NCBI GenBank assembly: GCA_016872285.1
Contig: VGZZ01000014.1
Span: forward strand, 1 to 51,227
Source: SAR202 cluster bacterium
GTDB taxonomy: Bacteria; Chloroflexota; Dehalococcoidia; Lucifugimonadales; GCA-2712585
Direction: 5' to 3'
Length of the DNA stretch: 51,227 bases
The notes beneath the pieces are model-generated. The model ran no database searches and had not been told where the DNA came from. It saw only the letters and a list, made by a program, of their open reading frames with translations. How positions within the stretch are numbered: the stretch's first letter is position 1; each line of letters begins with the position of its first letter. A program made the position numbers and the translations under genes. Positions 2,404 through 51,227 of this stretch are shown in pieces.

Positions 2404-3882
2404 TTAGGAGGTGGGGGGACGGAGGTGGGACCAGGGTTGGGCGGACTCAAAGGCGGCGGAGGCGGCGAGGACGGCGGGTTCGTCGCGAAGGGAACCGACG
2501 ATCTGGAGGCCGATGGGCAGGCCATCAACGAAGCCGCAGGGGACGCTGGCGGCGGGGTTGCCGGTGAAGTTGAATGGGAAGAGGGTGGCGTAGAAGCCCC
2601 ACATTTTGCCGACAGGTTTGCCGTCGATGACATGGGGCCGATGGCCGCAGGGGAAGGGAGGGACGGCCAGGGTGGGAGTTAGCAGCAGGTCGTATTTTTT
2701 GAAGAAGTCGCGGGTGTAGAGCTGTAGGCGCTGGAGAGCGGCGAGGGCGGCGGCGTACTGGAGGCCGGTGATTTTGGCGCCGTTTTCGATGCCTTCTCTG
2801 AGGTAGGGCATCATGAGGTGGCCTTTGTCCAGGTACTGGCCGTAGTTGGCATAGTCGTAGACACCGACAAGGGTAGTCATGAGGTCGCGGACTTCCTGGA
2901 TGTCGATTTTGTAGACGTTGTCGTCGACGGAAGCGCCGAGGGACTCGAAAACGCGGGCGGCCTTATAGCAGACGTCGCGGACTGATTTTTCGACGGGGAT
3001 GGAACCGAGGTCGGAGCTGTAGGCGATTCGTAAGCCTTTCACACCCCTGCTGAGGGCGGCGGAGAAGTTTGGGGGTCGAGACATGATGGTGCCGACGGGG
3101 GAGGCCTGGGGGTGAGGGCCGGCCATGACCTGGAGGAAGAGGGCGGCGTCGGCGACGGTGCGGGTGAGGGGGCCGTCCTGGGAGTAGAACACGGGGTTGA
3201 AGCTCATGGGGCCGGTGTTTCTGCGGGGGACGCGGCCCAGGGAGCCCATGATGCCGTAGATGCCGCAGAAGGACGCGGGGACTCGTATGGAGCCGCCGCC
3301 ATCGGTGCCGTGGGCGATGGGGTTGAGGCCGGCGGCGACGGAGGCGCCCGCGCCGCCGCTGGAGGCGCCAGCGACCATCTTGGTGTTCCAGGGGTTGCGG
3401 CAGAAGTCGCCGAGCTTGTTTTCGGTGACGCCGCCGCCGTGGCCGAATTCCGGGGTGTTGGTCTTGCCAAGGATGATCGCACCGGCGTTTTTTATTCGGG
3501 TGACGACGAAGTCGTCCTGGTCGGGGACCCAGTCCTTGAGGATAAGGGAGCCTTTGGTGGTGCGGAGGCCTTTGGTGGGGAGGAGGTCTTTGATGGAGGT
3601 GGGGATGCCATGGAGGGGGCCAAGGCGCTTGCCTTTCATGACGTCGGATTCTGCCTGACGGGCCTGGGCGAGGGCCGATACATCGGCCTGCTCCGAATTA
3701 TGTGAGTTTGTGGAGCAAGCGCCCTCGTCCGCCACAGTGAGGAAGGCGTTTAGCTTTGAATTGAGGGCGTGGATGCGGTCCAGATAAAGCTGGGTCAGCT
3801 CGACGGGGGAGAGTTTTTTGCCGGCGATGAGGCGTCGAAGGTCGGTGGCGGGGGTGAAGGCGAGGTCCTGGGAAGAGGGCAT
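2404..3882 (-). CDS. Amidase signature family hydrolase
   Basis: Hydrolyses an amide bond by the Ser-cisSer-Lys mechanism; the substrate cannot be told. The catalytic Lys sits in TSIKDLL, the cis-Ser and nucleophile region in GASSGGAGAS, and GTDGGGSIRVPASFCG completes the amidase signature. I chose the ATG at 3882 (MPSSQDLAFTPATDL) because TAGGAG lies about 7 bases upstream and the further-upstream codons are low-complexity; this gives 492 residues, normal for the family. It could act on aryl or alkyl amides or as an indoleacetamide-type hydrolase; it lacks gatA context. Residues after FLTVADEG include about 15 extra residues (CSTNSHNSEQADVS) in a region that is usually short in relatives; the DNA there contains a GGCCGAT-AC-ATCGGCC palindrome. 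It stands alone between repeat-rich spacers. Confidence 0.93.
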   Translation of the reverse strand: MPSSQDLAFTPATDLRRLIAGKKLSPVELTQLYLDRIHALNSKLNAFLTVADEGACSTNSHNSEQADVSALAQARQAESDVMKGKRLGPLHGIPTSIKDLLPTKGLRTTKGSLILKDWVPDQDDFVVTRIKNAGAIILGKTNTPEFGHGGGVTENKLGDFCRNPWNTKMVAGASSGGAGASVAAGLNPIAHGTDGGGSIRVPASFCGIYGIMGSLGRVPRRNTGPMSFNPVFYSQDGPLTRTVADAALFLQVMAGPHPQASPVGTIMSRPPNFSAALSRGVKGLRIAYSSDLGSIPVEKSVRDVCYKAARVFESLGASVDDNVYKIDIQEVRDLMTTLVGVYDYANYGQYLDKGHLMMPYLREGIENGAKITGLQYAAALAALQRLQLYTRDFFKKYDLLLTPTLAVPPFPCGHRPHVIDGKPVGKMWGFYATLFPFNFTGNPAASVPCGFVDGLPIGLQIVGSLRDEPAVLAASAAFESAQPWSHLRPPTS

Positions 3883-4011
3883 GGGGAGACTCCTAGGGGA
3901 GGGTTGGGGAGAGGATAGCATAGGGGATGGGAGAGGCAAAGGAAGGAAAAAGGGAGGCCACGTAAGTAATTGGATATGGCGGCAGTCGGTGTGTGAGTTA
4001 ACTATATGGGA

Positions 4012-4270
4012 GGTAATGGTAGCGGACGACACGTTGAGGTTTCTCGACTGCTCCATTCGGCTACGTCCGAGTACAAGCCGATCCGCCACGGCGGACGAGC
4101 CCCCCTCCCGATTACATCGGGATTTCGCGATTGAATGGGGTTAAGGTGCTCAAAGATTGAATAGAAACTAAGGTTGGGGAGACTTCGCTCAGGGCTAAAG
4201 GCTCACCGAAATGACCCTTCGATCCGCCAGAGGCGGGCTCAGGGCAGGCTCCGCAACCTACCCCGCCACC
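4012..4270. repeat. Cluster of interspersed repeats (families B, E, C)
   Basis: Contains GTTGAGGTTTCTCGACT, then CTACGTCCGAGTAC, the CCGATCCGCCACGGCGGAC hairpin and the ATCGGGATTTCGCGATT motif. A segment at 4183-4207 is identical over 25 bases to a stretch inside hutH (47315-47339). Together with neighbouring copies it fills most of the gene-free 3883-5497 interval. Confidence 0.75.
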
Positions 4271-44864: not shown

Positions 44865-46529
44865 ATGAAGGCATCGGTGATAAAGGCTTCTCGGGGGACG
44901 GAGATTTCATGTAAGGGGTGGGAGCAGGAAGCCGCGTTGCGGATGCTGATGAACAACTTGGACCCGGAGGTGGCGGAGAGGCCGGAGGAGCTGGTGGTGT
45001 ACGGGGGAAGGGGGAAGGCGGCGCGGGACTGGGAGTCGTTTCATGCCATTGTGAGGTGTTTGAGGGAGCTGGAGGGGGACGAGACGCTGCTGGTGCAGTC
45101 GGGGAAGCCGGTGGGGGTGTTTCGCACACACAAGGATGCGCCGCGGGTGCTGCTGGCGAACTCCAATCTGGTGCCGAAGTGGGCGACGCAGGAGGTGTTC
45201 GATTCGCTGGAGCGGCGGGGGCTGATGATGTACGGGCAGATGACGGCGGGAAGCTGGGTATATATCGGCAGCCAGGGCATCGTGCAGGGGACGTATGAGA
45301 CCTTTGGCGTGGCGGCGAGGAAACATTTTGGGGGGAGCCTGAAGGGGCGGCTGGTGGTGACGGCGGGGCTGGGAGGCATGGGAGGGGCGCAGCCGCTGTC
45401 GGTGACGATGAACGACGGGGTGGCGCTGGTTGTCGAGGTAGACGAGGGGAGGATTAAGCGCAGGATTGAGACGGGGTACCTGGATGAATGGACGAAAGAT
45501 TTGAACGAGGCGTTATCCAGGGCGGAGGCGGCGAAGCGGGCAGGGCGGGCGGTGTCGATTGGGGTACTGGGGAACGCGGTGGATGTGCTGGGGGCGATGC
45601 TGGAGAAGGGGATCGTGCCGGATATTATCACCGACCAGACGCCGGCCCACGACCCGCAGTCGTACATACCGAAGGGGTTGTCGGTGGGAGAGGCAGAGGC
45701 GTTGAGGAAGAAGGACCCGTCACGGTATATGGAGATGGCGGGTCGGTCTATGGCGGAGCACGTGAAGGCGATACTGGAGTTCAAGCGTAGGGGGAGCGTC
45801 GCGTTTGATTATGGGAACAACCTGAGGCAGCGAGCATATGATTTTGGGGTGGAGGACGCGTTCTCGTACCCGGGGTTTGTGCCGGAGTATATACGCCCGC
45901 TGTTTTGCGAGGGGAAGGGGCCGTTCCGGTGGGTAGCGCTATCGGGGGAGGCTAAGGACATTTTTGCCATCGACGAGATGGTAGTGAGAGAGTTCGGGCC
46001 GACGAACCCGGGGCTGGAGCGGTGGATCCGGCTGGCGCAGGAGCGGATCAAGTTCCAAGGGCTGCCAGCGCGGATATGCTGGCTGGGGTATGGAGATAGG
46101 GCAAGGTTCGGGAAGCTGGTAAATCGGATGGTGGCTAGCGGGAGGCTTCAGGCGCCGATTGTTATCGGGAGAGACCACCTGGACGGGGGATCGGTGGCGT
46201 CGCCGAACCGGGAGACGGAGGGGATGAGGGATGGGACGGACGCGGTGGCGGACTGGCCTTTGCTGAACGCTTTGATTAACGCGGTGGGGGGCGCGACTTG
46301 GGTGAGTATTCATTCGGGAGGGGGAGTAGGAATAGGACATTCGATACATGCGGGGCAGGTGATTTTGGCGGATGGGTCGAGGGCGGCGGGTCGTCGGCTG
46401 GATAGGGTGCTGACGACGGACCCGGGGACGGCGATTATTCGGCATGTGGACGCGGGGTATGAGGAGGCGGAGGAGGCGGCGAGGAGGCATGGGGTGAGGG
46501 TGCCGATGAGGCAGTATGGGAAGCGATGA
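44865..46529 (+). CDS. hutU: Urocanate hydratase
   Basis: Second step of histidine degradation: urocanate to imidazolonepropionate, with tightly bound NAD. The 554 residues are a normal length. Conserved stretches are [39 protein letters not shown], the NAD-binding [13 protein letters not shown], and [27 protein letters not shown] sits upstream of the ATG. hutH follows, separated by a repeat; hutI and a formiminotransferase are not in the window. Confidence 0.96.
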
Positions 46530-46722: not shown

Positions 46723-48384
46723 ATGAACTCTATAGGCCGGAATGTGGGTAAGGCCGATATGTTGGCGAAGAAGAGATTGTCTGATGGTGGGGTTGTGGGG
46801 GTGAGCGGGGAGGGGCTGACGGTGGGGGATGTGGTGCGGGTGGGAAGGGAGGGAGGAAGGGTGGCGCTGGGGGATGGAGTGAGACGGCGGATGGGGGAGT
46901 CTCGGGAGGTGGTGAGGAGGATTGTGGAGGAGGGGAGGGTGGTATATGGGGTGACGACGGGGTTTGGGGACCTGTCGACTAAATTTATTTCGCCTGAAGA
47001 GACGAGGAAGCTGCAGAGGAATTTGGTGCGGTCACATGCGGTGGGAACGGGGCCGATGTTTCCCACGGAAGTGGTTAGAGGCGTGATGCTGCTATCGGCC
47101 AACAAGCTGGCGAAGGGGCTGTCCGGGGTAGCGCCGGCGATAGCCGAGATGCTGGTGGAGTGCCTAAACAAGGGCATACACCCGCTGGTGCCGAGCCAGG
47201 GCAGCGTGGGGGCGAGCGGGGACCTGGCGCCGCTGGCGCATGTGGCGCAGGTGCTTATTGGGGAGGGGGAGGTAGATCCTTCGACTACGTCCGAGTACGG
47301 ACTTCCCCATTCGGCTTCGCTCAGGGCTAAAGGCTCACCAGGACTCGCTTCGCTCGGGTCCCCTCCCGGCGCACAAGCGGTGTCCGGTGCGGAGGCGCTG
47401 TCAAAGAGAGGACTGAAGCCGCTGGAGCTGGGGCCGAAGGAGGGACTGGCGCTGTTGAATGGGACGGAGGTATCGACGGCGCTGGGGGCTTTTGCGGTGC
47501 ACGACGCGTGGTCGCTGCTGCACGGGGCTGTCGCGGCGGGGGCGATGAGCCTGGAGGCGCTGAAGGGGAGCGACAAGCCGTTTGATGCGAGGCTGCAGGA
47601 GGTGCGGCCGCATGAGGGGCAGGGGTACGTCGCCAGGCAGCTGCGGCACTTGCTGAGGGAAAGCGAGACAACGGTGTCGCACCCGTGGACGCACAAGATA
47701 CAGGACCCGTACAGCCTGCGGTGCATGCCGCAAGTGATGGGGGCGTCCTACGACGCGATACGGCACTGCTGGTCGGTGGTGGAGAGGGAGATGAACTCGG
47801 CCACGGACAACCCGCTGGTGTTCGGAGGGGAGGTGCTGTCGGGGGGCAACTTCCACGCCCAGCCCATCGCGCTGGCGATGGGCTATTTGAAGATAGCGGC
47901 GTGTGAGATAGCGAGCCTGTCGGAGCGGAGGACGTATTTGCTGCTGGACGCCAGCCGGAGCGGGCTGCCGCAGTTTTTGGCGAAGAACCCGGGGGTAGAG
48001 TCGGGGCTGATGATAGCGCAGAACCTGGCAGCGGCGCTGGTGTCGGAGAACAAGGGGCTGTCGCACCCGGCGAGCGTGGACTCGATACCGACGTCGGCGG
48101 GGATGGAGGACCACGTGAGCATGGCGCCGATAGCGGGGCGGCAGGCTTTGCAGATCATCGACAACGCGATGCGGGTGGTGGCGGTGGAGCTGCTGGCGGC
48201 GTCGCAGGGGTTATACCTGTCGGAGCACCCGAGGCCAGGGAGGGGCGTGGAGGAGGCGGTGGCGATGGTGCGTCGGGTGGCGACACCGCTGGAGGGGGAC
48301 CGAAGCGTGTCGGGGGATGTGGTGCGGCTGGCGGGGCTGGTGAGGGAGGGGAGGTTTATGGGGATGATGGCAAATGGCGGTTGA
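46723..48384 (+). CDS. hutH: Histidine ammonia-lyase with an in-frame repeat insertion
   Basis: First step of histidine degradation, yielding urocanate and ammonia. The MIO-forming triad Ala164-Ser165-Gly166 is in GSVGASGDLAPLAH, and VVYGVTTGFGDLSTKF and SATDNPLVF are intact. At 553 residues it is about 40 longer than the usual 505-515. The surplus is residues about 185-222, after LIGEGEV and before GAEALSKRGLKPLELGPKEG. It is encoded by DNA that matches the genome's interspersed repeats, including a 25-base identity with 4183-4207. The frame is kept, so the enzyme may be active if the loop tolerates it. The region is normally a short surface loop. Confidence 0.95.
   Translation: MNSIGRNVGKADMLAKKRLSDGGVVGVSGEGLTVGDVVRVGREGGRVALGDGVRRRMGESREVVRRIVEEGRVVYGVTTGFGDLSTKFISPEETRKLQRNLVRSHAVGTGPMFPTEVVRGVMLLSANKLAKGLSGVAPAIAEMLVECLNKGIHPLVPSQGSVGASGDLAPLAHVAQVLIGEGEVDPSTTSEYGLPHSASLRAKGSPGLASLGSPPGAQAVSGAEALSKRGLKPLELGPKEGLALLNGTEVSTALGAFAVHDAWSLLHGAVAAGAMSLEALKGSDKPFDARLQEVRPHEGQGYVARQLRHLLRESETTVSHPWTHKIQDPYSLRCMPQVMGASYDAIRHCWSVVEREMNSATDNPLVFGGEVLSGGNFHAQPIALAMGYLKIAACEIASLSERRTYLLLDASRSGLPQFLAKNPGVESGLMIAQNLAAALVSENKGLSHPASVDSIPTSAGMEDHVSMAPIAGRQALQIIDNAMRVVAVELLAASQGLYLSEHPRPGRGVEEAVAMVRRVATPLEGDRSVSGDVVRLAGLVREGRFMGMMANGG
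47275..47388 (+). repeat. Interspersed repeat inserted in frame within hutH
   Basis: Contains GATCCTTCGACTACGTCCGA, then CCCCATTCGGCTTCGCTC, then AGGGCTAAAGGCTCACC and a region of CTCGCTTCGCTCGGGTCC. CTACGTCCGAGTAC also occurs at 4061-4074, and a related GCGTCCGAGTACCGACTTCG occurs at about 51088. The exact edges are uncertain because I cannot align relatives. Confidence 0.75.
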
Positions 48385-51047: not shown

Positions 51048-51115
51048 GGATGGGACGTGGCTGCAGTCACGTTGATTAGATTCTTCGACTGCGTCCGAGT
51101 ACCGACTTCGCTCAG
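51048..51115. repeat. Interspersed repeat family C copy
   Basis: GATTCTTCGACTGCGTCCGA and GTACCGACTTCGCTCAGCAA, the closest intergenic relative of the left half of the hutH insert. Confidence 0.65.
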
Positions 51116-51130
51116 CAACCGTCTTTAGAG

Positions 51131-51227
51131 TTAGGCATAAATCACCTTAGGAGAAAGATGCCAAGGGGTCTTATGTTTGAGCATAGCGTTGAGGATGGTA
51201 AGGAGCTTGCGCATGCAGGCCACCAGG
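51131..51227 (-). mobile_element. IS110-family transposase, C-terminus only, runs off the right edge
   Basis: The minus frame from the edge reads LVACMRKLLTILNAMLKHKT, then PWHLSPKVIYA and a TAA at 51131-51133. The VACMRKLLTILNAM stretch is the typical end of IS110/IS116/IS902 transposases. Whether the element is complete cannot be seen. IS110 elements insert at specific sites without clear inverted repeats. Confidence 0.75.

Follow-up and report, generated by a model that had tools for sequence, protein, structure and literature searches.

A dispersed REP-like repeat lies in frame within the histidine ammonia-lyase gene of a SAR202 cluster bacterium

A surplus loop in HutH

We analysed a window of 51,227 nucleotides of contig VGZZ01000014.1 from the SAR202 cluster bacterium assembly GCA_016872285.1. 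The window encodes a histidine ammonia-lyase (HutH) and, adjoining it upstream, a full-length urocanate hydratase (HutU; Table 1). The nearest named HutH is 63% identical and comes from a Chloroflexi MAG, in keeping with a likely source in the Chloroflexota. A sequence-only reading of this DNA had proposed that a dispersed repeat entered hutH in frame and made the protein about 40 residues too long. HutH is indeed overlong, although by a net 29 residues: 55 residues lie between alignment anchors that are separated by 26 in 30 of 35 aligned homologues. Alignment with relatives places this gain of 87 nt after G182-E183.

The surplus stretch is rare among HutH proteins. A HutH from the same family (genome G003) aligns with the window protein over residues 18-185 and 219-550, with about 12 nt between the two segments. 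It reads GEAEV-EGRVMPGKDALD where the window protein reads GEVD, the insert and then GAQAVSGAEALS. The insert is missing from the great majority of 80 further HutH sequences in an alignment, among which a single protein (L072) is longer in this region. The HutH of a Planctomycetota MAG (L030) carries its own, different and shorter insert at the same place. The solved HutH structure 1GKM has 5 residues where the window protein has 34. The closest relative found and the solved HutH proteins thus lack the loop altogether, rather than encoding it with unrelated DNA.

The insertion leaves the rest of the gene in good order. The reading frame is open across 553 codons, the catalytic A164-S165-G166 is intact, as the sequence-only reading had stated, and invariant positions are retained. 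AlphaFold (with 36 HutHs) gives a pTM of 0.89 and a pLDDT above 90 for most of the enzyme, and residues 190-216 fall below 50. The insert is therefore predicted to form a disordered loop on an otherwise well-predicted enzyme, about 20 residues past the catalytic ASG (164-166).

Table 1. Features of the window related to hutH and the repeat family
Feature	Position	Strand	Basis
hutU, urocanate hydratase, full length, adjoins hutH upstream	44865..46529	+	TIGR01228, profile 3-545 of 545
hutH, histidine ammonia-lyase, 553 aa, insert-bearing	46723..48384	+	NCBIfam NF006871 and TIGR01225 above cut-off
In-frame REP-like element, about 95 nt, encodes DPSTTSEYGLPHSASLRAKGSPGLASLGSPP	47273..47367	+	Genome-wide copies; missing from homologues; pLDDT <50 at 190-216
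24-nt core TTCGACTACGTCCGAGTACGGACT, 39 genome copies	47280..47303	+	Pattern count
Inner stem-loop GTCCG-AGTA-CGGAC, compensatory changes among copies	47289..47302	+	
Second module CTTCGCTCAGGGCTAAAGGCTCACC, 13 genome copies	47315..47339	+	
Coding tail module GGACTCGCTTCGCTCGGGTCC, stop-free 3' end marking the gene-associated subfamily	47341..47361	+	
Partial core copy	4056..4074	+	
Second-module copy, no long reading frame across it	4183..4207	+	
Core copy (2 mismatches), CAACCGTC tail, contig end	51084..51107	+	

The insert belongs to a genome-wide repeat family

We searched the genome (G000; 2.61 Mb in 83 contigs, 95.6% complete) for further copies by pattern matching and BLAST. BLAST with the insert returned 45 matches, the best of which are 89% identical over 91 nt and 95% identical over 74 nt. 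Pattern searches found 13 copies of the 25-nt second module and 39 of the 24-nt core, and reversed control patterns found none. These counts exclude chance as the source of the similarity. They also bear out the earlier proposal of a dispersed repeat, together with the lack of the loop in the closest relative found. Both matches on which that proposal rested are exact: the second module is identical at 25 of 25 positions to the copy starting at 4183, and the 14-mer CTACGTCCGAGTAC is common to the insert and to positions 4061-4074. The 25-mer belongs to the genome-wide family rather than standing outside it. Comparison with other copies shifts the edges of the element slightly, from 47275-47388 to about 47273-47367.

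The family is narrowly distributed. Core and tail do not occur in 59 relatives searched, six of which are from the same family. A simpler REP-like sequence that lacks the inner hairpin is present in several of these 59 genomes. An origin within hutH followed by outward spread was considered and rejected, as modules that are joined in the hutH copy occur separately elsewhere and other HutH proteins have no insert.

Beyond the four core copies with a CAACCGTC tail, a shared sequence continues to the contig ends (positions 51084-51227 of the window and near the ends of contigs C33, C56 and C78); one of its frames reads MPRGLMFEHSVEDGKELAHAG. The sequence 3' of these copies is probably a multi-copy mobile element in or beside the REP.

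Covariation among copies supports a stem-loop

An alignment of 33 copies supports a 13-pair structure. Within it, 28 cells are changed on both sides, compared with a mean of 9.0 in shuffled alignments, and none of 500 shuffles scored as high. Compensatory changes in the inner hairpin include an exchange of C-G for G-C. The stem is interrupted, consisting of 5+3+5 bp with a nested hairpin. When single sequences were folded, every version of the element proved no stronger than its shuffles, including the whole hutH copy as DNA or RNA. The support for a stem-loop thus comes from covariation, and the term 'palindrome' applies to the modules rather than to the hutH copy as a whole.

In-frame copies in other genes

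The genome search for coding genes with this repeat, which the sequence-only reading had recommended, identified in-frame copies of the element in at least eight further genes. These encode HisZ, Asd, RecG, a DUF3179 protein, a CopD-like protein, a solute-binding protein (SBP_bac_5) and two further lipoproteins, one of them thioredoxin-like. The CopD-like protein carries a tail variant, a DUF2298 protein carries a sister copy, and a probable DnaX fragment carries related sequence. Asd has gained 21 residues (63 nt) that are missing from all six same-family relatives, and HisZ has gained 18 residues (54 nt) that are missing from three of four. The fourth relative's HisZ (G005, L223) is extended near this site by a different short repetitive sequence (LAQPVLVQPVLAQ). 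The net gains of 87, 63 and 54 nt in hutH, asd and hisZ are smaller than the elements themselves (about 95, 64 and 64 nt), so either target bases were lost or the edges are misplaced.

Several of these genes have further repeat-like sequence. One loop of the DUF2298 membrane protein (G000:C52:3-2636, L170) contains a long composite that is apparently repeat-derived (HPNLPPHGGKG...LDSGFRRNDPSTSSEYGLRSG). In RecG (G000:C12:1029-3749, L195), the element is followed by a second in-frame repeat-like stretch, DWIPASAGMT, upstream of the wedge domain. The gene for FakA (YloV; G000:C28:33865, L191) is interrupted by an in-frame TGA that immediately precedes an element copy. The same frame continues in the C-terminal part of FakA, where a further stretch looks repeat-derived (SFDKLRTQ).

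All internal insertions on the sense strand are read in the DPSTTSEYGLRSGLASLGP frame. On the antisense strand, the only open frame is SPERSPYSDVVEG, which is the one used. Because up to three sense frames are open and one of them is used, a filter on the peptide content of insertions is plausible, although the numbers are small.

Two subtypes differ in their 3' tails

The 39 core copies fall into groups by the sequence of their 3' tail: AATGAC (27 copies), GGACTCG... (7), CAACCGTC (4) and another tail (1). Six of the seven GGACTCG-tail copies lie inside ORFs, compared with none of the 31 copies with AATGAC or CAACCGTC tails (Fisher p = 2.5e-6). The latter appear to sit outside genes, as the longest ORFs that span them either lack Pfam domains or encode one only far downstream. 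Among the ORFs across AATGAC-tail copies, five are domainless; in the sixth, the only domain lies a good way 3' of the repeat, after a probable signal-peptide start.

The longer tail GGACTCGCTTCGCTCGGCCCC occurs in 12 copies and is stop-free in the frame used. Ten of these lie inside reading frames, namely those of HutH, HisZ, Asd, RecG, the DUF3179 protein, the SBP_bac_5 protein, the thioredoxin-like lipoprotein, another lipoprotein (twice) and FakA. The remaining two lie at 3' ends, one in a methyltransferase ORF and one in a duplicated thiolase tail. At the latter locus (G000:C76, about 3700-4120, L194), the 3' end of the thiolase gene is apparently duplicated and the second copy runs into the element.

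The AATGAC consensus runs into a TGA in the frame that genes use. The loss from genes of copies that carry a stop accounts for one side of the tail split, but not for the absence of the GGACTCGCTTCGCTCGGCCCC tail between genes. A more speculative reading is a gene-adapted REP subfamily: the stop-containing tail would have been swapped for a stop-free one, and copies would spread from gene to gene or target coding DNA, acting as mobile donors of peptide loops. We raise this idea tentatively and consider it somewhat doubtful.

Origin of the HutH loop

The surplus loop of HutH very probably derives from a dispersed, non-autonomous REP-like palindromic element, one copy of which inserted into the part of hutH that encodes a hairpin turn. 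On this model, a selfish element would be tolerated at loop positions, provided that it is free of stops and that the change in length is divisible by three. Production and folding of the enzyme presumably continue, because the net gain is 87 nt, the frame used contains no stop and the encoded residues are predicted to be a disordered loop. We infer that HutH remains active and that selection acts mainly as a filter on the length, frame and site of insertions, the element itself being neutral or slightly harmful selfish DNA. The copies would have moved by copying of the element. In nine insertions, words common to both flanks are no longer than expected by chance, giving no sign of a target-site duplication, and the genome (95.6% complete) has no PF01797 match that would indicate a Y1 transposase. 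Mobility is accordingly read from the distribution of the copies alone.

An insert that has been put to use, either through a role of the loop in HutH or as an mRNA stem-loop that tunes stability or translation, and that is kept by selection, strikes us as very unlikely. The clean frame and the intact inner stem-loop of the hutH copy fit such a role. However, the same element occurs in unrelated genes, the loop is predicted to be disordered and shuffled sequences fold as well as the hutH copy.

Still less likely is that the insertion has damaged hutH, which would be becoming a pseudogene whose open frame reflects only a recent event. The stop codon before the element in FakA suggests that insertions in this genome need not all be harmless. 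Against decay of hutH stand its 553 open codons, its conserved invariant positions, a score above the equivalog cut-off and the intact neighbouring hutU, as well as the presence of the element in the housekeeping genes asd and recG. An assembly artefact in which sequences were joined at a repeat has a negligible chance of being correct: the assembly comprises 83 contigs, with several family copies near contig ends, but the two parts of hutH on either side of the insert are halves of a single gene in the correct frame, and HisZ, Asd, RecG and others also carry in-frame inserts.

Relationship to known repeat families

Accepting a REP-like insertion as the source of the loop, we compared the element with described repeats. 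Rickettsia palindromic elements (RPEs) are dispersed short repeats of intergenic DNA that also occur in frame within conserved genes, where the encoded peptide is tolerated (PMC10969869, PMC2229807). An RPE-bearing guanylate kinase of Rickettsia is reported to be translated and enzymatically active (PMC2229807). The likeness to RPEs that the sequence-only reading had noted stands as an analogy: our element is dispersed, lies in frame in several conserved genes and is missing from the orthologues of relatives. It does not extend to membership. The elements here are shorter (45-95 nt, compared with about 105-150 in RPEs) and are composites of small stem-loops, whereas an RPE is one long stem-loop with terminal inverted repeats. 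In addition, the family was found in only one of 60 genomes searched, and its gene-resident copies form a subfamily defined by their tail.

GTAG- and CGTC-tagged REPs are short palindromes that are mostly intergenic, with some in frame in ORFs (PMC3733652). The same paper places RPE-4 and RPE-6 of R. conorii in its CGTC families (PMC3733652). As in CGTC REPs, the outer stem of our element starts with AT, and some copies are in frame in ORFs. The tag itself differs, as most intergenic copies end in AATGACA (TGTC ahead of the stem on the other strand), a few end in AATGACG (CGTC) and coding-tail copies have neither. CGTC-tagged REPs have a conserved 8-9 bp stem with a loop of 4-5 nt (PMC3733652); the element described here has a stem-loop supported by covariation, with an interrupted stem. 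A different tail in the gene-resident copies further distinguishes the family from both REP types. RAYT-associated REPs are a poor fit, given the lack of a PF01797 match. The bacterial MITEs ERIC/RU-1 and RU-2/YPAL are short non-autonomous elements fused in frame to genes (PMC2229807); our element shares these properties but is shorter and has no detected target-site duplication.

The element acts in the manner of an RPE or an intragenic REP, and formally it is nearer to REP sequences. Among the papers searched for Chloroflexota repeats of this kind, we found none that describes in-frame insertion there. Intragenic REPs and RPEs are already known; the novelty here lies in a family restricted to one lineage, in the enzymes that it affects and in a gene-resident subfamily defined by its tail.

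A second HutH insert and wider significance

The DNA of the HutH insert in the Planctomycetota MAG (G060:C309:25716-25796) is a near-perfect palindrome (z -4.27). Its arms resemble other palindromes in the same genome with moderate similarity, and one of these lies in frame in a sigma-54 activator (L239). This HutH loop may be a recurrent landing site, a suggestion that draws on one further genome and on palindromes of moderate similarity.

In-frame palindromic elements were first described in Rickettsia and were later extended by a REP survey. The family reported here adds an independent in-frame case from a GC-rich genome outside the Rickettsiales, in HutH, Asd, HisZ and RecG. The tail split makes coding compatibility testable, as the absence of stops, the frame and the peptide composition can be set against target choice. 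Loops derived from repeats can also pass for functional insertions.
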